From an uncultured Eubacteriales bacterium (lineage in GTDB: Bacteria > Bacillota > Clostridia > Lachnospirales > Lachnospiraceae): a stretch of DNA of 38,873 bases. Shown in pieces: positions 1 to 12,512 of the stretch; position 1 is the stretch's first letter; every line of letters starts with the position of its first letter. Made by a program: the position numbers and the translations under genes. Under the pieces are notes generated by a model. The model had not been told where the DNA came from and ran no database searches. It worked only from the letters and a program-made list of their open reading frames with translations. The stretch is from assembly GCA_949299375.1 (NCBI GenBank), contig CASGAH010000034.1:1-38873 (forward strand). The letters are read 5' to 3'.

Positions 1-97
1 GGTAATAATACTTATTGGGGATAAAGGTCGGAGGCGTAAGCCGCTTGCACGACTGGGCAGTTACAAGCCCATTCCCTTTAGGGGATGGGTAGTTGAC
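1..97 (+). mobile_element. Probable right end of an IS200/IS605-type element (omega-RNA scaffold-like)
   Basis: The first 97 nt show the layout typical of the 3' end of TnpB-carrying IS200/IS605 elements. There is a short stem TGGGC (54-58) / GCCCA (67-71), then an overlapping strong hairpin CCCATTCCC (68-76), loop TTTA, GGGGATGGG (81-89) with one G-U pair, then TAGTTGAC (90-97). In such elements this region is both the transposon right end and the scaffold of the TnpB guide RNA, with the guide lying just downstream. No tnpA or tnpB is visible because the window begins here. The call rests on hairpin architecture and remembered resemblance to clostridial IS605 ends, so the exact boundary is not certain. 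Confidence 0.5.
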
Positions 98-140
98 GAC
101 GCTGTTCCATTGCAGGAAAATAAAGGAGGACAAGGGAGAC

Positions 141-779
141 ATGAGAATTGCATTGATCAATGAAAACAGTCAGGCGGCAAAAAATGAGATGATTGAACGT
201 GCCCTGAAAACGGTTGTGGAGCCGATGGGGCATGAAGTGAGAAACTATGGGATGTATACGCCGGAAGATGCGTGTCAGCTCACCTACGTGCAGATTGGAA
301 TTTTGGCTGCGGTTTTGCTGAACTCAGGCGCCGCAGACTATGTGATTACCGGATGCGGGACAGGAGAAGGCGCAATGCTTGCCTGCAATTCATTTCCGGG
401 TGTGATCTGCGGGCATGTGGAGGATGCACTGGATGCGTACACGTTCGCACAGATCAACGATGGAAATGTCATCGCCATCCCATTTGCAAAAGGATTTGGA
501 TGGGGAGGCGACTTGAATCTGCAGTATATTTTTGAAAAACTTTTTGCGGAGGAGAGTGGTCAGGGATACCCGAGAGAACGTGCGGTTCCCGAAAAACGAA
601 ACAAAAAAATATTGGACGAAGTAAAGCGCGTCACCTATCAGGAGCTGCCGGTAATCCTGAAAAAACTCGATCGGGATCTCGTAAAAGGAGCGCTCAGCGG
701 TGAAAAGTTTCAAGAATACTTTTTGGCGGATTGTAAGTCCGAGAAACTGCGGGAACTTGTAGCGTCGATTTTGGAGTAA
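141..779 (+). CDS. RpiB/LacA/LacB-family sugar-phosphate isomerase-like protein
   Basis: This encodes a 212-residue cytosolic protein of the RpiB/LacAB fold, which interconverts aldose and ketose phosphates such as ribose-5-P and ribulose-5-P. The family core is visible: an N-terminal beta strand (MRIALINEN), the TGCGTGEG loop around residues 70-80 that carries the active-site Cys and phosphate-binding turn, and an HVEDALDA segment. It is about 60 residues longer than ordinary RpiB (near 150), with a charged C-terminal extension, so it may belong to a subfamily with another substrate. The start at 141 is chosen over an upstream ATG at 93 because AAAGGAGGA (122-130) sits correctly before it and the family begins here; the 93 start would lie inside the IS end. 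It stands alone, 45 nt before the next gene. Confidence 0.8.
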   Translation: MRIALINENSQAAKNEMIERALKTVVEPMGHEVRNYGMYTPEDACQLTYVQIGILAAVLLNSGAADYVITGCGTGEGAMLACNSFPGVICGHVEDALDAYTFAQINDGNVIAIPFAKGFGWGGDLNLQYIFEKLFAEESGQGYPRERAVPEKRNKKILDEVKRVTYQELPVILKKLDRDLVKGALSGEKFQEYFLADCKSEKLRELVASILE

Positions 780-824
780 ATCCTGCAGAATGCACCGGAT
801 TTTCATCAGGAGGAGGGGGAAAAA

Positions 825-1370
825 GTGGATTATAAGAAGATTCAGGACTATTTTATTTATTTTATGTTTTACTCTGTTATCGGATGGATATATGAGGTCT
901 TTCTAGAAGTTGTTGTATATCGATGGGGATTTTCCAACCGTGGAGTTTTGATGGGGCCATATTGTGTCGTTTACGGCTTTGGCGCGGTCATCTTGCTGCT
1001 GACATTGTCAGAATTAAAAAAGAAGAGAATAAAAATCGGACCGATTCTCATCACACCTCTTCTCGTGTTCCTGGGAATTGTGTTCCTCACAACGCTAATT
1101 GAATTGATTGCCAGCTATGTGATGGAATGGACTATGGGCGAATGGCAGTGGGATTATACGAGATTTGCGTGGAACTTTCAGGGAAGAATCGCGCCCAATC
1201 CGAGCATTCGCTTTGGGATTGGAGGCATGGTGATTTTGTATTTGCTTCACCCGCTTGCGCTGCAATACACGGAAAGGGCAAATCCAACGGTTCAGAAAAT
1301 CATTGCGTGGACATTGGCCGTGATAATGGCTGTGGAGTGTGTGGTCTTCCTCGCTGGAAAACTAATTTGA
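825..1370 (+). CDS. Putative membrane protein, ABC-transporter type IV (CmpB-like) family
   Basis: This encodes a 181-residue integral membrane protein with about five hydrophobic segments. The start region (YFIYFMFYSVIGWIYEVFLE) and the RGVLMGPYCVVYGFGA motif are hallmarks of the widespread firmicute family Pfam calls putative ABC-transporter type IV (PF06541). No transported substrate is established for this family and no ATPase partner is next to it, so the transport role is only a family label. GTG at 825 follows a strong AGGAGGGGG site (810-818). It is separated from the upstream isomerase by 45 nt and could be co-transcribed with it. The reading frame ends cleanly at TGA 1368-1370. Confidence 0.75.
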   Translation: MDYKKIQDYFIYFMFYSVIGWIYEVFLEVVVYRWGFSNRGVLMGPYCVVYGFGAVILLLTLSELKKKRIKIGPILITPLLVFLGIVFLTTLIELIASYVMEWTMGEWQWDYTRFAWNFQGRIAPNPSIRFGIGGMVILYLLHPLALQYTERANPTVQKIIAWTLAVIMAVECVVFLAGKLI

Positions 1371-1469
1371 CAGTGTGCCCAACCCCTTGTCCCGTTCTCT
1401 GCGGAAAACGAATTTGTAAAAAAATAGATAACAGGGGCTTGAAAAAATTCAAAAAGAATATATACTTAT

Positions 1470-1640
1470 TTGTATGAATATGAGACAGAAAGAACGCTGG
1501 ACCGGGAGGCAGGTTCAGGTTATGGATACTGGATTCGATACGCAGCTGTTTTTGATGGTTTATCGGAAGCAATACAATCATACTATGATGATTACTACAG
1601 ACCGATTTATGAGAGCTGGAGAGAGGAAGTCCCGTGGTAA
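1470..1640 (+). CDS. Possible small protein or 3' gene remnant (TTG start)
   Basis: The frame opened after a TGA near 1442 encodes about 56 residues from TTG 1470 to TAA 1638-1640. The composition looks protein-like: an acidic start (YEYETERTLD), then GYGYWIRYAAVFDGLSEAI, then aromatic and acidic residues, ending in WREEVPW. No ribosome binding site precedes the TTG and I recognise no family. It could be a genuine small protein, or the decayed 3' end of a larger gene whose 5' part has been lost. An overlapping ATG ORF at 1474-1701 in another frame is less protein-like. Low confidence. Confidence 0.2.
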   Translation: MYEYETERTLDREAGSGYGYWIRYAAVFDGLSEAIQSYYDDYYRPIYESWREEVPW

Positions 1641-1727
1641 GCCGACTGTTTTGTGTACTCTGACATTCGACCATTGTGGTGGAAGGCACAAGAAAAAATG
1701 ATAGGAGCAGAAAATCTGCAAAAAAAT

Positions 1728-1773
1728 CGCTCAGATTAGGAGGAAAAACTCCGAACTGAGCGTTTTTTTTTTT
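1728..1773 (+). terminator. Rho-independent terminator
   Basis: The stem CGCTCAG (1728-1734) pairs with CTGAGCG (1756-1762). An inner GGAG/CTCC pairing closes an A-rich loop, and 11 consecutive T (1763-1773) follow. It ends transcription coming from the 141-1370 genes or the possible small ORF, and so isolates the sigI promoter downstream. Confidence 0.85.
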
Positions 1774-1966
1774 GCATGATACGCCCGCAGTATCGCGGCG
1801 GATAGAGGCGCCTTTTCTTCCCATATCCAATTGAGCCGCTATGCCTGTGATCTATTTACATATATTTTACATTCACTTTACGAAAGGATGCTTTTGAATT
1901 TGAAATAGATGCATTAAACTTTACAGAGAGGTTTTATGCGCCGGTGCGCAAAAAAGTGGGGGAAAG

Positions 1967-1994
1967 ACCCCGATTCCATGAAGAGAGATCCGTA
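1967..1994 (+). promoter_or_regulatory. Putative SigI-type promoter upstream of sigI (autoregulation)
   Basis: ACCCCGATT (1967-1975), an 11-nt spacer and GATCCGTA (1987-1994) recur with identical spacing at 3623-3650 before the lipoprotein gene. ACCCC plus CGTA resembles the sigma-I recognition pattern known from Bacillus and clostridia (-35 ACCCC-rich, -10 CGAA/CGTA-like). Placement 27 nt before sigI suggests that SigI drives its own operon, the usual arrangement for sigI-rsgI pairs. The duplicate is seen directly; the promoter role is inference from the match. Confidence 0.65.
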
Positions 1995-2008
1995 TTCTAT
2001 AATACGGA
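1989..2008 (+). other. Perfect hairpin between the putative SigI -10 element and the sigI ribosome binding site
   Basis: TCCGTATT (1989-1996) and AATACGGA (2001-2008) form a perfect 8-bp stem with loop CTAT, immediately before and touching the AAAGGAG ribosome binding site (2008-2014). As DNA it is an operator-like palindrome overlapping the -10 element. As RNA from an upstream start it could mask the ribosome binding site. Which of these applies cannot be told from sequence. Confidence 0.5.
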
Positions 2009-2021
2009 AAGGAGTTGAACT

Positions 2022-2750
2022 ATGCAGGGGGAACATCAGATAATCAAATTGGTCTACCAGGCAAAAAAAGATATGCAGAAGGCAGACGATCTGATTCGAA
2101 GCTATATTCCGTATATCCGATCGGAAGCATCAAAATTCCTTTCCCGGTTCTGTACAGAGCAGGATGATGAGTTTAGTATCGCCATGATTGCTTTTCATGA
2201 GGCAATTCTGGGATACGAAAAGAGCCGAGGCTCTTTCCTGCAGTACGCGTCTATGTTAATCCGAAGCCGATTGATCGACTATCATCGAAAGGAGGTTCGA
2301 CATCGAGGACACATTTCCTTGCAGGAGGAAATCAAAGAGGGAGAGCGGACGCTGATGGAGGAGTTGGCGGACAAGAATGATCCGATTGAGGAGTCCGTGA
2401 ATTTGCAGGCAACGCAAAGAGAAATTGAAGAATTGTCGCAGATACTGCCGCAGTTTGGCGTCAGCTTTTCGGATGTTGCAGACAATTCTCCCAAGCAAGA
2501 GCGGACGCTGGAGGCGTGTATGGCGGCTGTCCGCTATGCCGCTGCAAATCGGTTTCTGTTGGATCTTTTGCTGAAAAAGAAAAAACTTCCATTGGCACAG
2601 TTGGCAGCGGGATGCGGAGTGGAGCGAAAAACGTTGGAGCGTCATAGGAAATACATCTTAATCATGCTTTTAATCCAGACCAACGGATATGAAAATATCC
2701 GTTGGCACATAAAAGAGGCCCTGAACAGGAAAGGGGGGATGACAGCATGA
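2022..2750 (+). CDS. sigI: RNA polymerase sigma factor SigI
   Basis: This encodes a 242-residue alternative sigma factor of the SigI family, which in bacilli answers heat/envelope stress and in clostridia extracellular polysaccharide. Region 2 is visible near the N-terminus (EDEFSIAMIAFHEAI-like block, then SFLQYASMLIRSRLIDYHRKE). The SigI-specific C-terminal DNA-binding domain is clear: KKLPLAQLAAGCGVERKTLERHRKYI around residues 190-215. Length matches the family (about 240-250). ATG 2022 follows AAAGGAG (2008-2014). The stop overlaps the rsgI start (ATGA, 2747-2750), so the sigma factor and its inhibitor are probably translationally coupled. A SigI-like promoter lies just upstream, implying positive autoregulation held in check by RsgI. 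Confidence 0.93.
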   Translation: MQGEHQIIKLVYQAKKDMQKADDLIRSYIPYIRSEASKFLSRFCTEQDDEFSIAMIAFHEAILGYEKSRGSFLQYASMLIRSRLIDYHRKEVRHRGHISLQEEIKEGERTLMEELADKNDPIEESVNLQATQREIEELSQILPQFGVSFSDVADNSPKQERTLEACMAAVRYAAANRFLLDLLLKKKKLPLAQLAAGCGVERKTLERHRKYILIMLLIQTNGYENIRWHIKEALNRKGGMTA

Positions 2751-3574
2751 AATATATGGTAATGGAATGTCATTTCAGCTATGCAGTTGTGTTAGATGAA
2801 GAAGGGAAATTTTGGAATGTTGCCAATCTGCACTATGAAACGGGGCAGATTGTTGCAGAAGTTGTTAAGATGGAAATCCCTCTCGAAAAAGAGGAAACGG
2901 TTCCCCGGAAGTCAAATCGTTGGATTTATGGACTGGCAGTTGCAGCAGCCTGCCTTGTCCTGGCGATGACATCGCTGCTCCAAATCAATCAGATGCCATA
3001 TGCTTCGGTATATCTTACCATTAACCCGGAAGTTCTCATCGGCGTCAACCGAAAAGATGAAGTCGTTCGGCTGGAGGGATGCAATGAGGATGGGAAACGG
3101 TTGATAGATGGCTTTGCTTACCAAAAGGAAGAGATAAGCAGAGTGATGGATCAATTGATTGATCGCGCCATTGAGATGGGATATCTTCATGAGGGAGGCC
3201 AAATTTCACTTACGCTGGATGCCAATGAGGAGTGGATCATCCGCCATAAGGATCCGATCACAGAACATCTGATAGAATATGTATCGCAAAAAATGAGTGT
3301 GACCATTGAGGTGATTCAAAAAAACGCACAGAAGCAGGAGGCGATCATTCCGGTCAGACCCGACAAAGACACAGAAAGCAGTTTTGAGGAAGATTCCGGC
3401 GACTCAGGGTATGAGGAGGAAACGGAAGATTCCGGCGACTCAGGGTATGAGGAGGAAACGGAAGATTCCGGCGACTCAGGGTATGAGGAGGAAACGGAAG
3501 ATTCCGGCGACTCAGGGTATAAAGAGGAAACGGAAGATTTCGGCGACTCAGGGTATGAGCGACTCAGACTATGA
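2747..3574 (+). CDS. rsgI: Anti-sigma-I factor RsgI with acidic repeat tail (3' end frameshifted)
   Basis: This encodes a 275-residue single-pass membrane protein that binds SigI inside the cell. The cytosolic RsgI N-terminal domain is residues 1-55 and a transmembrane helix lies near 60-79 (IYGLAVAAACLVLAMTSLL). An extracellular SEA-like domain follows (about 85-205), containing T-I-N93-P94-E-V. In clostridial RsgI proteins an Asn-Pro at this place is the self-cleavage site needed for signalling. Residues 215-275 are a tandem 12-residue repeat of the type DSGDSGYEEETE. Usual RsgI proteins end in a carbohydrate-binding or other sensor module; here an acidic low-complexity tail replaces it. 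The last codons (ERLRL, stop 3572-3574) are out of frame. The +1 frame continues as SDSDYEEEIPED to 3596, so a small deletion in the last repeat has changed the C-terminus. Start 2747 overlaps the sigI stop. Confidence 0.88.
   Translation: MKYMVMECHFSYAVVLDEEGKFWNVANLHYETGQIVAEVVKMEIPLEKEETVPRKSNRWIYGLAVAAACLVLAMTSLLQINQMPYASVYLTINPEVLIGVNRKDEVVRLEGCNEDGKRLIDGFAYQKEEISRVMDQLIDRAIEMGYLHEGGQISLTLDANEEWIIRHKDPITEHLIEYVSQKMSVTIEVIQKNAQKQEAIIPVRPDKDTESSFEEDSGDSGYEEETEDSGDSGYEEETEDSGDSGYEEETEDSGDSGYKEETEDFGDSGYERLRL
3389..3556 (+). repeat. 36-bp tandem repeat inside rsgI (about 4.6 units)
   Basis: Units start at 3389, 3425, 3461, 3497 and 3533. The first three are essentially identical at DNA level, the fourth has TATAAAG for TATGAGG, and the fifth has GATTTC for GATTCC and is cut short. 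Each unit encodes E-D-S-G-D-S-G-Y-E-E-E-T. Near identity of codons indicates recent slippage or recombination, so copy number probably varies between strains. Confidence 0.9.
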
Positions 3575-3622
3575 GGAGGAAATCCCTGAGGATTAAAAAA
3601 AAATTAAAAAAAAGAAGATACA

Positions 3623-3650
3623 ACCCCGATTTGAAAAGGGAGGATCCGTA
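3623..3650 (+). promoter_or_regulatory. Second putative SigI-type promoter, before the lipoprotein operon
   Basis: ACCCCGATT (3623-3631), 11 nt, GATCCGTA (3643-3650) is the same element and spacing as at 1967-1994, while the 11-nt spacers differ. Conservation of only the two boxes with fixed spacing is what a shared sigma factor would leave. It lies 51 nt before the lipoprotein ATG at 3702 and would put 3702-7451 under SigI control. Confidence 0.65.
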
Positions 3651-3701
3651 ATCTATCTATGTAAAGAAAAAAAGAGAAATTTTCAAAAAGGAGAGAAGAA
3701 A

Positions 3702-4643
3702 ATGAACAATGGGAAACGAAGATCGATTTTAGGTATCGCAGCGGCATGGGTGATGTGTGTGGCACTTTTGGTGGGATGCGGCAGTGTAGGACCGGCAGCC
3801 GGATTTTCCAGTGGAGGAACATTGGTTTTGCGAGTGAATCCGGAGATTGAAATCGCGTATGATGAGAATGGAATGGTTACGGAAATCAAAGGAAGAAACG
3901 ATGACGGAAAAGAGATGGTAGCATCGTATTCCGGATATGAGGGAAAAGAAACCCGTCAGGTTGTAACAGATCTGGTAGAGATGATCGGGGAAGCCGGCTA
4001 TTTTGTAGAAGAGATAGAAGGGAAAAATCGCCAGATCATTATCGAAATTGAATCGGGATCCAGCCTTCCGTACGAGGCATTTTTGGATGAGGTTGTTTCC
4101 GACGTTCACAACTGCATTCAAAATAACAGTTGGAACAGCATGATCGATGTAGAGGGAGAAAGTAACTACGGTATGAGTGATTACGTAGACACAGATTACG
4201 GCCCGGACAGCGACGGAGTGACAGACTATGATGACGGGACAACGGACTATGACGATGGAACGACAGACTATGACGATGGAACGACAGACTATGACGACGG
4301 GACAACGGACTATGACGATGGAACGACAGATTACGATGACACAGATTATGGCCCGGACAACGACGGAGTGACGGATTATGATGACGGGACAACGGACTAC
4401 AACGATGGAACAACAGACTACGATGACGGGACAACAGACTATAACGACACAGACTACGGTCCGAACAATGACGGAATGACGGATTACGATGACGGAACAA
4501 CGGACTACGACGACACAGATTATGGCCCGAACAACGACGGAGTGACGGACTATGATGATGGGGATTCCGGTTATGATGATGGAGATTCTGGCTATGATGA
4601 TGGGGATTCTGATTATGAGGATGGAGATTCCGGCAATTCATGA
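3702..4643 (+). CDS. Lipoprotein with RsgI-like extracellular domain and acidic DYDDG tandem repeats
   Basis: This encodes a 313-residue secreted lipoprotein. The signal peptide is basic (KRR) then hydrophobic with lipobox L-V-G-C26. Residues 40-150 resemble the extracellular domain of the RsgI encoded just upstream: a V-N46-P47-E-I motif aligns with RsgI I-N93-P94-E-V, followed in both by a strand, then E(G)(C/R)N(E/D)DGK. It is therefore a stand-alone, membrane-tethered copy of the sensor domain. Residues 163-313 are tandem repeats: 7-residue DYDDGTT units, four longer DTDYGPxxDGxTDYDDG units (reminiscent of calcium-binding thrombospondin type-3 loops), and a final GDSGYDDG block echoing the RsgI tail. 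Ribosome binding site AAGGAG precedes ATG 3702. The stop overlaps the next possible start (ATGA, 4640-4643). Its function is not established; it may modulate RsgI or be a surface substrate or cation binder. Confidence 0.8.
   Translation: MNNGKRRSILGIAAAWVMCVALLVGCGSVGPAAGFSSGGTLVLRVNPEIEIAYDENGMVTEIKGRNDDGKEMVASYSGYEGKETRQVVTDLVEMIGEAGYFVEEIEGKNRQIIIEIESGSSLPYEAFLDEVVSDVHNCIQNNSWNSMIDVEGESNYGMSDYVDTDYGPDSDGVTDYDDGTTDYDDGTTDYDDGTTDYDDGTTDYDDGTTDYDDTDYGPDNDGVTDYDDGTTDYNDGTTDYDDGTTDYNDTDYGPNNDGMTDYDDGTTDYDDTDYGPNNDGVTDYDDGDSGYDDGDSGYDDGDSDYEDGDSGNS
4188..4640 (+). repeat. Acidic tandem repeat region of the lipoprotein gene
   Basis: 21-bp units encode D-Y-D-D-G-T-T. They are interleaved with four copies of a longer unit beginning D-T-D-Y-G-P and ending D-Y-D-D-G, then three to four D-S-G/D-Y-D-D-G units. 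Codon choice varies more than in the rsgI repeat, so this array looks older or more diversified. Confidence 0.85.
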
Positions 4644-5350
4644 CAGCAAATTCGTGGATAAGAGAAAAAGAACCCTGCAAGATGCGCCATGAGTGGAAGT
4701 ACAGCATCAGCTTCCAGGAGGCCTGGGTGATGTCGTCCCGACTGCAGAAGATTTTTCAACGCGACAAGTATACAGGCTCACACGGTTCCTACCGTGTGAG
4801 CAGCCTCTACTTTGATACACCATATGATAAGGCGCTGCGCCAGAAATTGAATGGTGTTTCGTCTCGGGAAAAGTTCCGCCTTCGTTATTACGGGGAGGAT
4901 ACGTCCCGGATTCGCTTGGAGAAGAAATGGAAAATCAATGGATTGTGCGGAAAGTATGGGGCATGGCTTACAGAAGACGAGGTTCGGCGGATTCTGTGCG
5001 GAGACAGTGAGCTGCTGCTGCAAAAAGAATCCCCGGTATTGCTTGAATTTTACAGCAAGCTGCGCGGACAGCTCCTGTCCCCCACGACAATTGTGGCATA
5101 TGACCGTGAGGCGTTTTTGTATGAGCCTGGAAACGTGCGGATTACGATAGACCGAAACGTTCGAACCCGGATTGGAAGCAAGGCGTTTCTCAATCCACGG
5201 CTGGAATTCACCGACATCTCAGAAAATCAGGCGATTTTAGAGGTAAAGTATGATGCGTTTCTGCCGGAAGTCGCTCAGAGAATGGTTCAGCTGCCAGGCT
5301 GCCGCCTCGTGTCATTTTCCAAATATGCCATATGCCGCAAATACGATTGA
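4640..5350 (+). CDS. VTC-domain (polyphosphate polymerase-like) protein
   Basis: This encodes a 236-residue protein (222 if started at ATG 4682) of the VTC domain family, a triphosphate-tunnel fold that in yeast Vtc4 makes polyphosphate from ATP. Tunnel motifs are visible: the MRHEWKYSI opening (E-x-K), YRVSSLYFDT, REKFRLRYYGE, RIRLEKKW, VAYDREAF, the R-x-T-x-D strand, and metal-ligand-type ILEVKYD near the C-terminus. It has no membrane segment, so DUF4956 downstream is the likely membrane partner. Homologues of the family usually begin at MRHEWK, which favours 4682, while ATG 4640 overlaps the lipoprotein stop (ATGA) and favours coupling. I cannot decide between them. VTC, DUF4956 and CotH are commonly found together in clostridia, but the product made by these bacterial trios has not been shown to my knowledge. 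Confidence 0.85.
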   Translation: MTANSWIREKEPCKMRHEWKYSISFQEAWVMSSRLQKIFQRDKYTGSHGSYRVSSLYFDTPYDKALRQKLNGVSSREKFRLRYYGEDTSRIRLEKKWKINGLCGKYGAWLTEDEVRRILCGDSELLLQKESPVLLEFYSKLRGQLLSPTTIVAYDREAFLYEPGNVRITIDRNVRTRIGSKAFLNPRLEFTDISENQAILEVKYDAFLPEVAQRMVQLPGCRLVSFSKYAICRKYD

Positions 5351-5365
5351 GAGGAAGAATGCAAT

Positions 5366-6040
5366 ATGTTTCAGTTTCAGGATATTTTTAAATCCAGCTT
5401 TCTGGAAAATGTGGGATCCATCACATTGCTTGACATGGCACTTGCACTTGCACTGTCATTTGCAATCGGACTTTTCATTTTCTTTATTTACAAACAATGC
5501 TATGCGGGGGTTATGTACTCTTCCAACTTTGGCGTGACGCTAATTGCGCTGTGCATGATTACTTCCCTGCTGATTCTGGCCGTGACAAGCAATGTTGTGC
5601 TGTCTCTTGGTATGGTAGGTGCGTTGTCGATTGTCCGATTTCGCGCTGCAATCAAAGAACCGTCCGAGATTGCCTTTTTATTCTGGAGCATTGCGGCAGG
5701 GATTGTGCTGGCCGCCGGATTTTTACCGCTGGCTGTTTTTGGAAGCCTGCTGATTGGATTGATGCTGATTGTATTTTCCGGTCACAAGGAGTTTGAAAAG
5801 CCCTACATTCTCGTACTGCACTGTGAAACCGTTGATTCTGAGCAAAAAGCCTATCAGATGGCTGCCGGGAGGGCGAAAAAACTGTCGATGAAAAGCAAAA
5901 GTGTTGTTTCCGGATGCATTGAACTGAACTATGAAATTCGCCTGAAAGATGCGGACACCTCTTTCCTCAATGAACTGGCAAATCTGCCGGGAGTGACGTA
6001 TGCAGCGATGGTATCGTACAATGGAGATTATATGAGTTAA
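5366..6040 (+). CDS. DUF4956 membrane protein
   Basis: This encodes a 224-residue protein with a membrane N-terminal half: hydrophobic stretches at about 20-45, 58-80, 82-100 and 108-140. A soluble alpha/beta C-terminal domain of about 80 residues follows. The segment MVGALSIVRFRAAIKEPSEI (about residues 84-103) is the signature of DUF4956. The family regularly lies between a VTC-domain gene and a CotH gene, and an MgtC-like fold has been noted for such proteins. A membrane subunit for VTC, for example for export of its product, is a reasonable inference and nothing more. AGAGGA near 5350 serves ATG 5366. It is 15 nt from the VTC gene and 4 nt from the kinase gene, so the three form one operon. 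Confidence 0.85.
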   Translation: MFQFQDIFKSSFLENVGSITLLDMALALALSFAIGLFIFFIYKQCYAGVMYSSNFGVTLIALCMITSLLILAVTSNVVLSLGMVGALSIVRFRAAIKEPSEIAFLFWSIAAGIVLAAGFLPLAVFGSLLIGLMLIVFSGHKEFEKPYILVLHCETVDSEQKAYQMAAGRAKKLSMKSKSVVSGCIELNYEIRLKDADTSFLNELANLPGVTYAAMVSYNGDYMS

Positions 6041-6044
6041 AGCG

Positions 6045-7451
6045 ATGCTGAAATCAAAATATATTGACTGGATTTGCATAATAGTGATGGCAGCTGCGCT
6101 GTCCGGGACGATTCTTTTCTGGGATGGGGAATCGTTTGGACTGACCCGGGCATCCCGTTCCCCTGGATATGAGAATCGGCTCTTTGATTCCTCCATAGTT
6201 CACGAGGTTGATATCATAATAGAAGACTGGGAACAATTTCTGGAGCAGGCCAGTGAGGAGGAATATCATTCGTGCAGCATTGTCATTGACGGAGAGGCCT
6301 TTTCGCATGTGGGACTGCGGGTAAAGGGGAATAACTCGCGGCGCCTGACGGAAACGTATGGATTGGAGCGCTATAGCCTGAAAGTCGAGTTTGATCATTA
6401 CACAGCGGGGAGTTATTATGGACTGGACAAGTTTTCGCTGGATTCTTCTTTTCAGGACAATAGTTATATGAAAAACTGGATTGCCTACGATATGATGGAG
6501 AAGATGGGAGTGCCGACGCCGCTGCGCAGCTACACGTGGGTGCGCGTAAATGGAGAGGACTGGGGACTTTTCTTGGCAATAGAAGAACCGGAAGAATCCT
6601 TTGCCAGACGCCAATTCGGAAAAAATCATGGAAATCTCTACAAGCCAGACTATCGTTCTCTCAATGCGGAAAATGCAGATGTGCATTTGCGGTACATTGA
6701 CGAGTCGATCGAAAGCTACGACAATATTTTCCGAAATGCGAAATTTGAGGTGTCAGAAGCGGAAAAGCGGCGTGTGATCCATGCGCTGAAAGTACTCGAT
6801 ACAGGAGAGAATCTGGAATCTGTGATTCATATCGATGAAGTGCTTCGCTATTTCACCGTGCAGGTGTTTGTCGTCAACCTGGACAGCTATCTTGGAAAGA
6901 CGGGGCACAACTATTTTCTATATGAAGAAAATGGAATTTTAAGCATCCTTCCATGGGATTATAACCTGGCATTTGCCACGTACTCCCTCGGGATGCCAAA
7001 TCCGATCAACGACTCCACGAAATACGTCAATTATCCCATTGACACACCGGCAAGCGGGGAGATCATGAAAAAACGCCCGCTGTACCATCATTTGATGAAA
7101 AACAATGCATATTTTGCAAAGTATCACGCATACTTCGATCAGCTCATCTCCGAGTATTTCGAGAGCGGGTACTTTCAACAGTGGATCGCCCGGACAACAC
7201 AGATGATTGCTCCGTACGTAGAAAAAGATCCCACCGCCTTTTGTTCTTACGAGGATTTTCTGCTAGCGGTAGATACAATTACAGAATTTCGGAACAATAC
7301 CTTCCACAATCCGGGGACAACAACAAGACCGTACAAACTTCGTAGATGCTTCCAGCGTATGGCTTCCAGACATGGGAGAAATCGAAGACTTAAAACAAAA
7401 ATAATCCAAACCCAGCGAAATCCATCCGGACAGCGAACCGCGAAGTTGTGA
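6045..7451 (+). CDS. CotH-family protein kinase, C-terminus frameshifted
   Basis: This encodes a 468-residue CotH-family protein. An N-terminal membrane anchor (residues 8-25) is followed by an extracellular CotH kinase fold (PF08757, about 55-400). CotH enzymes are atypical secreted kinases that phosphorylate Ser in repetitive proteins. Kinase-like motifs are intact: RVKGNNSR (about 93-100), K-F-S-L-D near 128, LDSYLGKTGHNY with H288-N289, and metal-binding W304-D-Y-N. From residue 416 (nt 7290) the frame is wrong. The +1 frame from 7288 reads F-G-T-I-P-S-T, ...NFVDASSVWLPDMGEI... and stops at 7402-7404, which matches the usual end of clostridial CotH proteins. The usual preceding stretch (a RAES...GQL-type segment) is missing, so an internal deletion with frameshift is likely. 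The catalytic core precedes the lesion and activity may survive. Confidence 0.85.
   Translation: MLKSKYIDWICIIVMAAALSGTILFWDGESFGLTRASRSPGYENRLFDSSIVHEVDIIIEDWEQFLEQASEEEYHSCSIVIDGEAFSHVGLRVKGNNSRRLTETYGLERYSLKVEFDHYTAGSYYGLDKFSLDSSFQDNSYMKNWIAYDMMEKMGVPTPLRSYTWVRVNGEDWGLFLAIEEPEESFARRQFGKNHGNLYKPDYRSLNAENADVHLRYIDESIESYDNIFRNAKFEVSEAEKRRVIHALKVLDTGENLESVIHIDEVLRYFTVQVFVVNLDSYLGKTGHNYFLYEENGILSILPWDYNLAFATYSLGMPNPINDSTKYVNYPIDTPASGEIMKKRPLYHHLMKNNAYFAKYHAYFDQLISEYFESGYFQQWIARTTQMIAPYVEKDPTAFCSYEDFLLAVDTITEFRNNTFHNPGTTTRPYKLRRCFQRMASRHGRNRRLKTKIIQTQRNPSGQRTAKL
7288..7404 (+). pseudogene. Out-of-frame ancestral 3' end of the CotH gene
   Basis: Codons from 7288 to TAA 7402-7404 encode 38 residues beginning FGTIPST and ending DMGEIEDLKQK. 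The G-T-I-P-S and V-D-A-S-x-x-x-x-x-D-M-G elements are typical of CotH C-termini. They lie in frame +1 relative to the upstream CDS and have no start codon of their own. Confidence 0.7.
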
Positions 7452-7467
7452 GCGGGATGCGCCGGTT

Positions 7468-7517
7468 AAGCGCCTCCTTAAAGTGTCAAGCGTACCTGGC
7501 ACTTTAGGGAGGCGTTT
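7468..7517 (+). terminator. Long inverted repeat, probable terminator of the SigI module
   Basis: CGCCTCCTTAAAGTGTC (7471-7487) pairs with GGCACTTTAGGGAGGCG (7498-7514), with two G-U pairs and a 10-nt loop. AA/TT flanks extend the stem. Only a short T run follows, so termination is likely but not textbook. It stands between the CotH gene and the uvrB promoter. Confidence 0.6.
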
Positions 7518-7554
7518 GCTGTCCAGACAAACCGTTCCCGGGCATCACAATACA

Positions 7555-7566
7555 GAACAAAAGTTC
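7555..7566 (+). promoter_or_regulatory. LexA (SOS) box before uvrB
   Basis: GAAC-AAAA-GTTC is a perfect inverted repeat of the firmicute LexA/DinR type (GAAC-N4-GTTC), extended by a G on the right. It lies about 127 nt before the uvrB start and just upstream of a -10-like GATAAACT (7599-7606), as expected for SOS control of uvrB-uvrA. Confidence 0.8.
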
Positions 7567-7595
7567 GAAAAAACAACTATACTTTTTCCGGTTTT

Positions 7596-7606
7596 TGTGA
7601 TAAACT
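7596..7606 (+). promoter_or_regulatory. Probable uvrB promoter -10 region
   Basis: TGTGATAAACT contains an extended -10 style TG followed by a GATAAA/TAAACT hexamer. No good -35 is visible, which suits an extended -10 promoter. The LexA box lies about 30 nt upstream. A small hairpin (7636-7653, GGG/CCC with an inner GAG/CTC) lies in the leader. Confidence 0.4.
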
Positions 7607-7692
7607 AGGAAGGACAACAGAGGATCGGCCGAATCGGGGAGAAATTCTCGCCCGGTCCCAAAAGAAAAGACTGGAAAAAAAGAGGGAATCGT

Positions 7693-9687
7693 ATGGACCA
7701 TTTCAAATTGGTATCGGAATATACGCCTACGGGGGATCAGCCGCAGGCAATTGAGTCGCTTGTCAGAGGTTTTCAGGAAGGGAATCAATGTCAGACGCTG
7801 CTTGGGGTTACGGGTTCCGGAAAGACGTTTACAATGGCCAATGTGATCCAGGCACTGAACAAACCGACGCTGGTGATTGCCCACAACAAGACGCTTGCCG
7901 CTCAGCTCTACGGTGAATTTAAAGAATTTTTTCCGGAGAATGCGGTGGAGTATTTTGTCTCCTACTACGACTACTATCAGCCGGAGGCGTATATTCCGTC
8001 GACTGACACGTATATTGAAAAGGACTCGGCCATCAATGATGAGATTGACAAGCTGCGTCTGTCTGCAACGGCGGCGCTCTCTGAGCGATCGGACGTTATC
8101 ATTGTGGCGTCGGTCTCCTGCATCTATGGCCTTGGAAGTCCGATTGACTACCAGGAGATGGTTGTCTCTCTGCGCCCTGGGATGGAGAGGGACCGGGACG
8201 AGGTGATTCGCAAGCTGATAGACATCCAATATATGCGAAACGACATAGACTTTAAGCGCGGAACGTTTCGGGTGAGAGGAGATGTCCTGGAGATTTTTCC
8301 GGCGAACTGGGGAGAGGAAGCTGTCCGGGTGGAGTTTTTTGGGGACGAGATTGACCGGATTGGCGTGTTTGACCCGTTAACGGGCACTGTCAAGAGCTGG
8401 CTTCAGCATACGGCAATTTTCCCGGCGTCCCACTATGTCGTATCGAGAGAGAGGATGGAGGAGGCGGCGAAGACGATTGAGGCAGAATTGAAAGAACAGG
8501 TTGCCTTCTTCCGGGGGAGAGATCGCTTTCTTGAGGCACAGCGCATCTCGGAGAGGACGCATTTTGATGTGGAGATGATGCGGGAAACCGGATTCTGCTC
8601 TGGCATTGAGAATTATACGAGGCATCTGGCCGGCACTGCCCCGGGAGAAGCGCCCAACACGCTGATGGATTATTTCCCGGACGATTTTCTGATCATTGTA
8701 GATGAATCGCACATTACCCTTCCGCAAGTGAGGGGGATGTTTGCGGGAGACCGTTCCCGAAAGACAACGCTTGTGGATTATGGATTTCGTCTTCCCTCTG
8801 CGCTGGATAACCGTCCGCTGAATTTTGAGGAATTCGAATCAAAGATCAGTCAGATTCTGTTTGTGTCCGCCACTCCGGGGGAGTATGAAGCGCGGCACGA
8901 GCTGCTTCGCGCAGAACAGGTCATCCGGCCCACAGGACTTCTAGACCCGGAAGTTGAGGTTCGCCCGGTGAGAGGACAGGTGGATGATCTGATCGGAGAG
9001 ATCAACAGGACGACAAAGGAAAAGAACAAAGTGCTGGTGACAACGCTGACGAAGAAAATGGCGGAAGATTTGACGGATTATCTGAAAGGGGCAGGAATCC
9101 GTGTAAAATATCTCCACTCGGACATTGACACGTTAGAGCGCGCCCAGATCATCCGGGATATGCGTCTGGATGTGTTCGATGTCCTTGTGGGAATCAATCT
9201 GCTCCGGGAAGGGCTGGACATTCCGGAGATTGCGCTTGTTGCAATTCTCGATGCGGACAAGGAAGGATTTCTCCGCTCGGAGACATCTCTGATTCAGACC
9301 ATCGGGCGGACCGCCCGCAATGCAAAGGGACGGGTTATTATGTATGCCGATGGAATGACAGAATCGATGAGCCGGGCGATCGGGGAGACAAAACGGAGGC
9401 GGGAAATCCAGCAGGCCTACAATGAAGCGCACGGAATTACACCCCAGACGATACACAAAGCAGTCCGCGATCTGATCCGCATCTCGAAGAAGGCGGAGGA
9501 GGCGTCCAGCCATCTGGAGAAAGATCCGGAATCGATGAGCCGTGGGGAGCTGGAGAAACTGATCCGGAAGATGAACAAGAAGATGCGGGAAGCCGCAGCG
9601 GAATTGAATTTTGAGGCTGCGATGGAACTGCGGGACAAGATGCGGGAGCTGATGAAACATTTGGAAGAAATGGAAGGGAGAACGTGA
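7693..9687 (+). CDS. uvrB: Excinuclease ABC subunit B
   Basis: This encodes the 664-residue damage-verifying helicase of nucleotide excision repair. Visible elements are Walker A GVTGSGKT (38-45), the aromatic beta-hairpin [12 protein letters not shown] (about 92-103) that probes the strand, and Walker B-type VDESH (about 335). Helicase motifs include [14 protein letters not shown] (about 535-550). The C-terminal UVR motif (about 622-660, [15 protein letters not shown]) contacts UvrC. Length is normal. GAGGG precedes ATG 7693. The stop overlaps the uvrA start by one base, so the two are translated together. The LexA box at 7555 indicates SOS induction. Confidence 0.98.
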
Positions 9688-12512
9688 TGCCCGAGAAACA
9701 ATACATTAAAATCCGGGGGGCAAGGGAACACAACCTCAAAGGACTCGATGTCGATATTCCGAGAAATGAACTTGTCGTGCTTACCGGGCTGAGCGGGTCC
9801 GGAAAATCTTCCCTTGCATTTGATACGATCTACGCAGAGGGGCAGCGCCGCTATATGGAGTCGCTCTCCTCATATGCCCGTCAATTTCTCGGACAGATGG
9901 AGAAACCGGAAGTAGACCAGATCGAAGGCCTCTCACCGGCAATTTCCATTGACCAGAAGTCGACAAACCGCAATCCCCGCTCTACGGTGGGAACGGTGAC
10001 AGAAATTTATGATTACTTTCGGCTCCTCTACGCCCGCATAGGCATTCCCCACTGCCCAAAGTGCGGCAGGGAGATCAAAAAGCAGACCGTCGATCAGATG
10101 ACCGATCAGATTATGGAGCTCCCGGAGCGGACGAAACTGCAGCTGCTTGCGCCGGTGGTGCGCGGGAAGAAAGGCCGCCACGAGAAGGTTTTGGAACAGG
10201 CCAAGAAAAGCGGTTATGTCCGTGTCCGAGTTGACGGAACTCCATATGACTTGTCAGAAGAGATCCTCCTTGACAAAAACAAAAAACATGAGATTGAAAT
10301 TGTCGTGGACCGGCTTGTCATCAAGCCCGGGCTAGAACGGCGCTTGGCAGATTCCATAGAACAGGTGCTCAAATTGACGGACGGACTTCTCCTTGTGGAT
10401 GTCATCGGGGGAGAACCGATGCTGTTCAGCCAGAACTTTTCCTGCCCGGAATGCGGCATCGGAATCGATGAGATTGAGCCGAGGAGTTTTTCGTTCAACA
10501 ATCCATTCGGCGCCTGCCCGGAGTGCTACGGGCTTGGATACCGGATGGAATTTGATGAAGATCTGATGATACCCGACAAGAGCCTCAGCATTGCGAAAGG
10601 GGCGATTGCGGCGATGGGATGGCAGTCCTGCACAGAGAAGGGAAGTTATACGAGAGCGATTCTCGATGCGCTTTCGGAACATTTTCAGTTTTCTCTGGAT
10701 ACCCCGTTTGCGCAGTATCCAAAAGCGATTCACGACATTTTGATTCACGGGACAGGAGAGACGGTGAAGGTTCACTACAAGGGACAGCGCGGAGAAGGGG
10801 TATATGATGTCACCTTTGAAGGGCTGATCCGCAACATGGAGCGGCGCTACCGGGAGACATCTTCCGAGACAATGAAGGCGGAGTACGAGTCGTTTATGAG
10901 AATCACGCCCTGCAAGCGCTGCCGCGGGATGCGGCTGAAAGAGGAATCGCTTGCCGTCACGGTGGACGGGAAAAATATATTTGAAGTAACCAATCTGTCC
11001 ATCCGGAAACTCCAGACATTTTTGCGGGAGCTGAAGCTGACGCCGATGCAGGAGGCCATCGGGGCGCAGGTTCTCAAGGAGATTAAGGCCCGCACGCAGT
11101 TTCTCATCGACGTCGGGCTGGATTATCTGAGTTTGTCGAGAGCTACGGCAACGCTGTCCGGAGGAGAATCGCAGAGAATCCGGCTTGCGACGCAGATCGG
11201 CTCAGGGCTTGTGGGAGTCGCCTATATTTTGGACGAGCCAAGCATAGGGCTGCACCAGAGAGACAATGACAAGCTTTTGCGCACATTGATTCATCTGAAA
11301 GATCTGGGCAACAGCGTCCTTGTCGTAGAGCACGATGCGGATACGATGATGGCGGCGGACTGCATTGTGGACATCGGACCAGGGGCGGGAGACCACGGCG
11401 GCGAAGTTGTGGCAGTCGGATCGGCGCAGGAGATCATGGACAATCCGGATTCCATCACCGGGGCCTATTTAAGCGGAAGACGAAAGATCCCAGTTCCCGA
11501 AAAAAGGAGGACGCCGGAAAGCTATGTGACCATTTTCGGGGCGGCGCAGAACAATCTCAAAAACATCACGGTGAAAATACCGCTTGGAGTGTTTACCTGT
11601 GTCACAGGAGTGTCCGGATCCGGGAAATCGTCTCTCGTCAATGAAATTCTCTATAAAAATCTGGCGAAGAAGCTGAATCGGGCACACGAAATTCCCGGGG
11701 CTTTTCAGCGGATGGAAGGCATCGAGCAGCTGGACAAAGTCATTGCCATTGATCAGAGTCCCATTGGCCGGACGCCCCGCTCCAATCCGGCCACATATAC
11801 CGGCGTGTTTGATCTGATTCGCGACTTGTTTGCCTCCACTGCCGACGCGAAGGCAAAAGGTTATGCAAAGGGGCGATTCAGCTTCAACGTCAAGGGCGGA
11901 CGCTGCGAGGCGTGCAGCGGGGATGGCATGATCAAGATTGAGATGCATTTTCTGCCGGACGTATATGTGCCGTGTGAGGTGTGCCATGGAAAGCGCTACA
12001 ATCGGGAGACGCTGGAAGTGCTCTACAAGGGAAAGAGTATTTATGATGTGCTGAATATGACGGTGGAGGAGGCAATGACGTTTTTTGGAAATGTCCCGGC
12101 GATCCGAAGAAAAATAGAAACGCTATTTGAAGTAGGGCTTTCCTACATTCGTCTTGGACAGCCCTCTACGACGCTGTCCGGCGGAGAGGCACAGCGCGTC
12201 AAGCTGGCGACAGAGCTGAGCCGGCGCAGCACGGGCAGGACCATCTACATTCTGGATGAGCCGACGACAGGACTTCACTTTGCTGATGTGCATCAGCTGA
12301 CGAACATTTTGCAGAAGCTGGCCGACGGGGGAAATACCGTTGTCGTCATCGAGCACAACCTGGATGTGATTAAGACGGCCGATTACATCATCGATCTGGG
12401 CCCGGAGGGCGGCGACGGAGGCGGAACGGTTGTGGCAGCCGGAACACCGGAGGAGGTCGCCGGTCAGGACAATTCCTACACCGGGCAGTATCTCAAAAAA
12501 TATTTGCATTGA
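9687..12512 (+). CDS. uvrA: Excinuclease ABC subunit A
   Basis: This encodes the 941-residue DNA-damage sensor ATPase. Two ABC modules are visible: first Walker [10 protein letters not shown] (34-42) with signature [12 protein letters not shown], and second Walker [10 protein letters not shown] with [12 protein letters not shown]. Two four-Cys zinc modules are present (CPECGIG...CPECYG and CEACSGDG...CEVCHG). ATG 9687 overlaps the uvrB TGA (9685-9687). A GTG at 9684 would add one residue; ATG is preferred, with AAGGGAG about 8 nt upstream. UvrA2 loads UvrB at lesions, and uvrC is not in the window. Length and motifs are complete. Confidence 0.98.

Follow-up and report, generated by a model that had tools for sequence, protein, structure and literature searches.

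A sigma-I-type gene module in an uncultured Eubacteriales bacterium, with a repeat-tailed RsgI-like lipoprotein as the predicted substrate of a linked CotH kinase

The window analysed here is a 38,873-nucleotide (nt) stretch, contig CASGAH010000034.1 of assembly GCA_949299375.1, from an uncultured Eubacteriales bacterium of the Lachnospiraceae. It carries a module in which a sigma factor and its anti-sigma factor, SigI and RsgI, are joined through an RsgI-like lipoprotein to a trio of VTC, DUF4956, and CotH proteins (table 1). An earlier note, made from the sequence alone, had named these six genes in this order and on one strand, which domain searches of the open frames bear out. It had also spaced them by 4–60 nt, which holds for four of the five junctions (in gene order, a 4-nt overlap, a 127-nt gap, a 4-nt overlap, a 15-nt gap, and a 4-nt gap) but not for the one between rsgI and the lipoprotein gene, where the 127-nt gap contains a second sigma-I-type promoter. 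Position 1967, at which the note had the module begin, is the first base of the first promoter match. The source genome is a 2.02-Mb draft in 133 contigs (91.73% completeness) with three VTC genes and only two RsgI_M domains, both in this module.

Table 1. Promoters and genes of the module, with positions in the window and supporting evidence
Feature	Positions	Strand	Evidence
Sigma-I-type promoter before sigI	1967..1998	+	ACCCC-N19-CGTATTCT
sigI, sigma-I factor	2022..2750	+	TIGR02895, E 4e-51; Sigma70_r2 over cut-off
rsgI, membrane anti-sigma-I factor	2747..3574	+	RsgI_M 1.2e-22; N-P motif; acidic DSGY repeat tail
Second sigma-I-type promoter, before lipoprotein and trio	3623..3654	+	Strict pattern; place conserved in relatives
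RsgI-like lipoprotein, predicted CotH substrate	3702..4643	+	RsgI_M 4.1e-14 at residues 44-142; lipobox Cys26; Asn46-Pro47; 22 [S/T]-x-Y tail motifs
VTC-domain protein, predicted polyphosphate polymerase	4640..5350	+	PF09359 1.2e-36; conserved basic residues
DUF4956 membrane protein	5366..6040	+	PF16316 2.4e-11
CotH-family kinase	6045..7451	+	PF08757 3.6e-57; 5jd9 5.3e-17

By scanning genome contigs with the window SigI, we obtained 20 loci (loci and genomes are designated below by L and G numbers), and this survey of the neighbourhoods of SigI homologues, which the earlier note had envisaged, found all six genes in order at 11 of them, in contigs labelled as Erysipelotrichia, Agathobacter, Mogibacterium, Ruminococcus, a Clostridiales bacterium, and Tissierellia. 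Six others were cut at contig borders, and three long ones (L075, L076, L078) consisted of sigI, rsgI, and the lipoprotein gene without the trio; at one such locus, L075/L100, the SigI gene appears to be interrupted, lying in two open-frame pieces. Searches with an alignment of the lipoproteins matched 11 of 391 genomes of the class, 22 of 397 of the family (two weakly), and 3 of 398 of the phylum, the source genome being counted each time, so that the lipoprotein is uncommon; an earlier draw of 150 family genomes gave RsgI_M in 47 and VTC in 112. L100 (same contig as L075) and L153 and L154 (weak matches that proved to be other proteins) were dropped before counting. At 24 of the 46 lipoprotein loci, window included and one duplicate removed, all six genes were present on a single strand and ordered as in the window. 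This recurrence excludes a chance arrangement, rules out a neighbourhood unique to this strain, and supports the view that the lipoprotein connects the SigI–RsgI pair with the trio. Among the variants, sigI-rsgI is divergent from lipoprotein-trio at L117 and not adjacent to it at L110, the lipoprotein and CotH genes occur together without VTC-DUF4956 at L103, L141, and L146, and no CotH adjoins the lipoprotein at 12 of the 46 loci, five more being not judgeable. The commonest additional neighbour, an ABC-type ATPase found at 9 loci, belongs to a large generic family and was not counted as part of the module.

The SigI protein scores 173.8 bits against TIGR02895, 11 bits under the curated cut-off of 185, yet this is by far its best sigma model. 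In RsgI, the Asn-Pro of the central domain, RsgI_M, which we take to be of the SEAL type, occurs as INPEV. About 45 N-terminal residues are kept among relatives as judged by eye, and Pfam gave no match there for a cytoplasmic SigI-binding domain. Nor did Pfam detect a carbohydrate-binding module in RsgI, RsgI_M being the sole match and the tail, encoded by a 36-bp tandem repeat (3388-3559), being of low complexity. Near position 3556 (by eye; region 3543-3596), the rsgI frame leaves the frame of this repeat, and an overlapping frame runs on to an acidic end; this departure, which may be real or an assembly error, lies outside the matched core domain. The lipoprotein likewise consists, beyond its RsgI_M domain, of a low-complexity tail. 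Its lipobox cysteine is invariant in 16 aligned lipoproteins and recognized by pattern in 44 of 46 (weaker in L105, absent from L110), and every one of the 46 has the Asn-Pro, as established by script for 44 and by reading for L148 and L151. The lipoprotein profile also matches the solved RsgI structure 8t9n (E 1.5e-4), the match beginning exactly at the Asn-Pro. Several relatives contain an extra PepSY-like stretch (by eye), and the lipoprotein-like protein of L110, where the trio is present without an adjacent SigI or a sigma-I promoter, combines the lack of a lipobox with an Asn-rich tail of S-N-Y units in place of Asp.

In CotH, D280, N289, and D305 are invariant in 12 of 12 and align with the Asp, Asn, and Asp of 5jd9, the solved structure of a spore coat kinase; we presume the corresponding catalytic roles. 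An N-terminal membrane anchor and an outward catalytic domain are predicted by eye. The last ~50 residues (7290-7451, beyond the kinase core, by eye) are unlike the ends of L073, L074, and L079, the three relatives aligned there. CotH proteins of the window kind score more than 600 bits against their profile, versus 307-405 for L121, L137, and L156, which marks them as a distinct subfamily; the profile, built from the sigma-I-linked kind, misses distant CotH proteins, including ones found by Pfam in G293:C81 and G003:C1. The VTC protein possesses the conserved basic residues of its family, of presumed function, and gives a weak profile match to Vtc4 (3g3q, E 0.0016). The DUF4956 protein matches an MgtC/SapB-like model at 2.8e-6, with 27 bits against a cut-off of 214.

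The sigma-I-type promoters were described by a strict pattern, ACCCC-N18..20-CGTAWNCT, read from the first 16 loci, which is compatible with the published sigma-I signatures, ACCCCC/CGAA in Bacillales and an A-tract with CGWA in clostridia (PMC4711584, PMC10575876). It matches the window twice, at 1967 and 3623, versus no match in 100 shuffles, and apart from these promoter sites the loci and control regions, 1.2 Mb in all, contain no strict match. Before the lipoprotein gene, the strict pattern was present at 39 of 46 loci, a relaxed form at five, and neither at two (L110, L146); before sigI, the corresponding numbers were 35, 10, and two (L103, L107) of 47. The 13 hold-out loci, which give a fairer count, had 11 strict, one relaxed, and one missing promoter before the lipoprotein gene and eight strict and five relaxed ones before sigI. 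A sigma-I-type promoter thus lies directly before each of the two gene groups that the earlier note had placed under SigI control, and sigma-I probably drives the lipoprotein gene and the trio directly; because the lipoprotein gene overlaps that of VTC, the trio should follow the promoter at 3623. L106 contains four near-identical strict promoters in tandem before the lipoprotein gene (10406-10732). At L108 and at L109 in G445, a lipoprotein with repeats that look PepSY-like by eye stands on its own behind a strict promoter, without an adjacent sigI, L109 lying far from the full module of the same genome; because the standalone L109 has a strict promoter, sigma-I may also act in trans. A wider regulon in the source genome was not supported, the single extra strict match being equalled by one in the reversed control.

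The tail of the lipoprotein varies with the presence of CotH. After the first survey, and in writing before the hold-out loci were fetched, we fixed the rule that at least four [S/T][DGNESQ]Y motifs occur if and only if CotH is a linked neighbour. The hold-out set comprised 13 new lipoprotein loci, apart from two weak matches to unrelated proteins; agreement was complete at the 11 loci that could be judged (two could not), with 9-34 motifs at the seven with CotH and none at the four without. Over all loci, the 29 of 29 with linked CotH have 9-34 [S/T]-x-Y motifs, versus about 1-3 in shuffled versions of the same tails, and the 12 of 12 without it conform as well, 11 having 0-1 motifs in the disordered part and L148 none in its tail. 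The absence of CotH was checked by Pfam throughout the genome for 10 of these 12; for L076 and L078, the check covered three frames downstream of each. At L145 and L152, the contig extends only about 2.9 and 2.1 kb past the lipoprotein gene, but neither genome contains CotH by Pfam. At five loci (L067, L108, L114, L140, L142), not evaluable since the contig breaks off at the lipoprotein gene or shortly beyond it, the visible tails have 6, 2, 4, 1, and 0 motifs, respectively; L140, from G585, with no CotH genome-wide by Pfam, fits the rule outside the counts. The association is significant by Fisher's test (p 4e-10, 40 rows), which ignores kinship. In a tree built from SigI, RsgI, and the lipoprotein domains, each label changes eight times, both traits differ together in the well-supported sister pairs L106/L107 and L146/L145, and 6 of 6 independent well-supported pairs agree (p 0.031).

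The position two residues before tyrosine, −2, is where the tails differ. With CotH, it is Ser or Thr for 96% of 506 tail tyrosines (Thr 63%, Ser 33%); without CotH, it is Asp for 84% of 79 and Ser for 1%. In 572 other open frames of at least 250 residues, none had more than five motifs, and Ser/Thr preceded Tyr at this distance in 11.4% of 8846 cases. RsgI tails behave similarly, with Ser/Thr at −2 for 213 of 244 tyrosines with CotH versus 1 of 14 without. Tails with CotH have a net negative charge of 0.276 per residue, those without 0.564 (p 1e-5; a disorder cut excluded L148 and L108 from both the charge and the tyrosine figures). If each motif is given two extra charges, the former value becomes 0.530 (p 0.69, an absence of difference and no proof of equal charge), a shift such as one phosphate per motif, with Asp elsewhere, would give. 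Tyrosine itself is ruled out as the determinant by the Tyr-rich tails without CotH, as is VTC-DUF4956 by L103, L141, and L146, which lack it next to CotH and have 14, 24, and 26 tail motifs. Because these three keep their motifs, CotH is the key partner of the lipoprotein, rather than the whole trio to which the earlier note had linked it. Gene order, promoters, domains, catalytic residues, and this covariation can be read directly from the sequences.

The best reading of these data is that CotH acts at the cell surface as the kinase of the lipoprotein tail and that Asp stands in for phosphate where CotH is missing. We think it rather probable that the module works as a stress-type switch of gut bacteria, a sigma-I regulon that amplifies itself and mainly yields a surface phosphoprotein together with its own kinase. 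In the basal state, SigI would be held at the membrane by RsgI. RsgI elsewhere is processed by autocleavage of its outer domain followed by intramembrane proteolysis (PMC12203970, PMC10202637); if the same route operates here, a triggered RsgI would let SigI fire two promoters, one giving sigI-rsgI and the other the lipoprotein, VTC, DUF4956, and CotH. The lipoprotein would display its acidic disordered tail at the surface, where the outward, membrane-anchored CotH would phosphorylate Ser/Thr of its [S/T]-x-Y repeats, as well as of any such repeats in RsgI, to form a dense polyanionic brush. Relatives without linked CotH would reach a similar charge through Asp at the motif position. In what is the weakest step, VTC-DUF4956 would probably provide polyphosphate, or export it, in support of the surface layer. 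Phosphorylation, topology, the signal, and the function of the brush we infer throughout. The circuit idea of the earlier note is strengthened, and the surface phosphorylation that it had proposed can be narrowed to the [S/T]-x-Y repeats of the tail. The main gain is a predicted surface kinase–substrate pair in which Asp takes over in relatives that lack the kinase. A bolder version, which we regard as highly doubtful, would make CotH an extracellular kinase independent of ATP: VTC would make polyphosphate inside, DUF4956 would export it, and CotH would use it on the tail, giving a switchable brush that the cell could shed by means of the Asn-Pro domain, with the RsgI phosphotail setting the gain of sigma-I.

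Several points weigh against the kinase–substrate reading. The [S/T]-x-Y motif could serve another modification, and in the B. subtilis phosphopeptide discussed below the phosphates are reported at positions other than the Ser two before Tyr (PMC7821199). The tree yields just six independent well-supported pairs, an earlier tree of the lipoprotein domain having given 4 of 4 (p 0.125), and the charge comparison carries the limit stated with it. The motif is nearly dispensable in RsgI tails (none in L103, one in L116). The tails of L114, in G095, are motif-rich although neither CotH nor VTC was found in that genome, the contig ending inside the repeats. L109 has three motifs in its whole tail and none in the disordered part, though G445 encodes this CotH, and other CotH genes exist elsewhere in genomes with Asp-type or motif-free tails (G003, G293, G511, G626). 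The relaxed promoter pattern is also found elsewhere by chance, so that relaxed matches carry less weight.

An alternative is that the sigma-I regulon is real and the repeats are the target of another modification (O-glycosylation or modification of Tyr) or a Ca2+-binding repeat, CotH merely co-travelling or having another target. Tyr does occupy a fixed place in the repeat unit, and units such as DTDYGPNNDGVTDY look, by eye and from recall, like acidic Ca2+-binding repeats. Tails without CotH, however, may keep Tyr and lose Ser/Thr (30 Tyr and no motif in L151, 23 and none in L078), Asp occupies the Ser/Thr position there, and L110, with CotH, retains S-N-Y despite having lost most acidic residues (8 of 127 remain), all of which leaves this explanation unlikely. 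We consider it decidedly unlikely that the lipoprotein serves mainly as an additional sensor, or as a decoy, in RsgI signalling, with the trio making an envelope polymer, phosphorylated or containing polyphosphate, that has nothing to do with the tail. The sharing of the RsgI domain and its Asn-Pro by all lipoproteins would agree with such a role, as would the occurrence of VTC-DUF4956 mostly without CotH in 19 of 20 other VTC regions and the trio reported next to pel exopolysaccharide genes (PMC7112168), but the tail motif covaries with CotH, and L110 keeps lipoprotein and trio with neither adjacent sigI-rsgI nor a sigma-I promoter. Neutral co-inheritance, with trio and repeats in one clade, neither in another, and repeat expansion accounting for the rest, draws on the fact that the tails are tandem repeats, whose motifs are not independent within a tail and are shared by close relatives. 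The eight label changes on the tree, the sister pairs L106/L107 and L146/L145 that switch both traits, and the agreement of all six independent pairs make it very improbable indeed.

Returning to the preferred kinase–substrate reading, the role of VTC-DUF4956 in it is inferred from the VTC family and the company that the pair keeps. It lies beside CotH at 26 of 29 linked loci, and VTC is found elsewhere in the genome for the other three (G241, G605, G700), a weak indication given the family background of 112 in 150; five genomes with Asp-type tails (G035, G585, G639, G752, G1091) contain neither CotH nor VTC by Pfam. These distributions, like the predicted outward position of CotH, are also compatible with the bolder version driven by polyphosphate. 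For comparison, we used 20 other VTC regions, two from the source genome and 18 from the family. VTC-DUF4956 pairs occur in 19 of them, and a CotH of another kind adjoins VTC in two (L121, L137); for the other 18, no CotH was found in the 33 neighbouring frames scanned with Pfam, which do not cover every flanking frame. Because no frame of at least 60 residues in the 20 regions had six or more motifs, the idea that all VTC-DUF4956-CotH trios have [S/T]-x-Y neighbours was rejected. L121 (3432-6968, source genome C47) is a second such trio, with the other CotH subfamily and neither SigI nor a repeat-tailed neighbour. A gene for a Cthe_2159 carbohydrate-binding domain adjoins VTC in 10 of the 20 regions (L120, L127-L132, L134, L135, L138), with DUF4956 in nine, and is a second recurrent partner of VTC-DUF4956, in the place of CotH.

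The module is preceded in the window by genes for RpiB-like and CmpB-like proteins and followed by open frames of uvrB-uvrA (by eye), and a search for RNA families gave no match across positions 1000-8000. The GC fraction is 0.45-0.475 at positions 1-8000 versus 0.48-0.57 in the rest of the window. This lower GC and the lack of a lipoprotein match in G704, the sole genome listed from the same genus, suggest that the module may have been acquired by horizontal movement.

These data offer a concrete candidate kinase–substrate pair for bacterial CotH in a non-spore setting, whose predicted target motif can be recognized in the sequence. They also seem to reveal a series of phosphosite-to-aspartate replacements, made by nature, that goes along with whether the linked kinase gene was lost or gained. 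They further provide a defined, testable setting, tied to sigma-I signalling, for the unexplained VTC-DUF4956-CotH genes, and raise the question of the phosphate source of a surface kinase.

The earlier note knew of no described circuit of this kind, which holds for the mechanism, as neither a similar circuit nor a tail substrate is proposed in the titles and abstracts surveyed. It does not hold for the gene cluster, printed for Clostridium perfringens NELoc-2 (PMC2879425, PMC11677781), in which a sigma factor, an anti-sigma-domain protein, VTC, a membrane protein annotated as a tubulin/FtsZ GTPase, and CotH are clustered. Compared by gene list alone, NELoc-2 differs by two VTC copies, a resolvase, a glycosyltransferase, and a deacetylase, and the portions of the two papers covered propose no mechanism. 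The pel-associated group of CotH, polyphosphate polymerase, DUF4956, and DUF4832, as its report outlines it (PMC7112168), shares the contiguity of a polymerase-type gene, DUF4956, and CotH, but the window module has SigI-RsgI and the lipoprotein instead of immediately adjacent pel or DUF4832 genes.

With the SigI–RsgI systems of B. subtilis and C. thermocellum, the module shares a sigma-I gene overlapped by rsgI, an autoregulatory promoter of the A-tract/CGWA type, and the Asn-Pro of the RsgI central domain; its output is a second RsgI-type lipoprotein and a kinase gene set rather than genes for wall homeostasis or the cellulosome, and unlike RsgI of the cellulosome type, the window RsgI has no C-terminal carbohydrate-binding module by Pfam. 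In animals, the substrates of the secretory kinase Fam20C include acidic repeat proteins. Fam20C is akin to CotH (PMC7821199), and its acidic disordered repeat substrates resemble the tails described here, but it is eukaryotic, has ATP available in the lumen, and is under no sigma-factor control. A further parallel in design is the CotB-CotG-CotH module of B. subtilis as reported in PMC7821199, where a CotH-family kinase gene also lies near that of a protein with a disordered, acceptor-rich C-terminal repeat tail, where CotH polyphosphorylates the Ser-rich repeat tail of CotB, and where one phosphopeptide includes S-D-Y. The window module differs from it by a predicted location at the cell surface rather than the spore coat, by its sigma-I promoter, by the usual presence of VTC and DUF4956, and by tails of acidic [S/T]-x-Y units in place of the Ser/Lys/Arg type.

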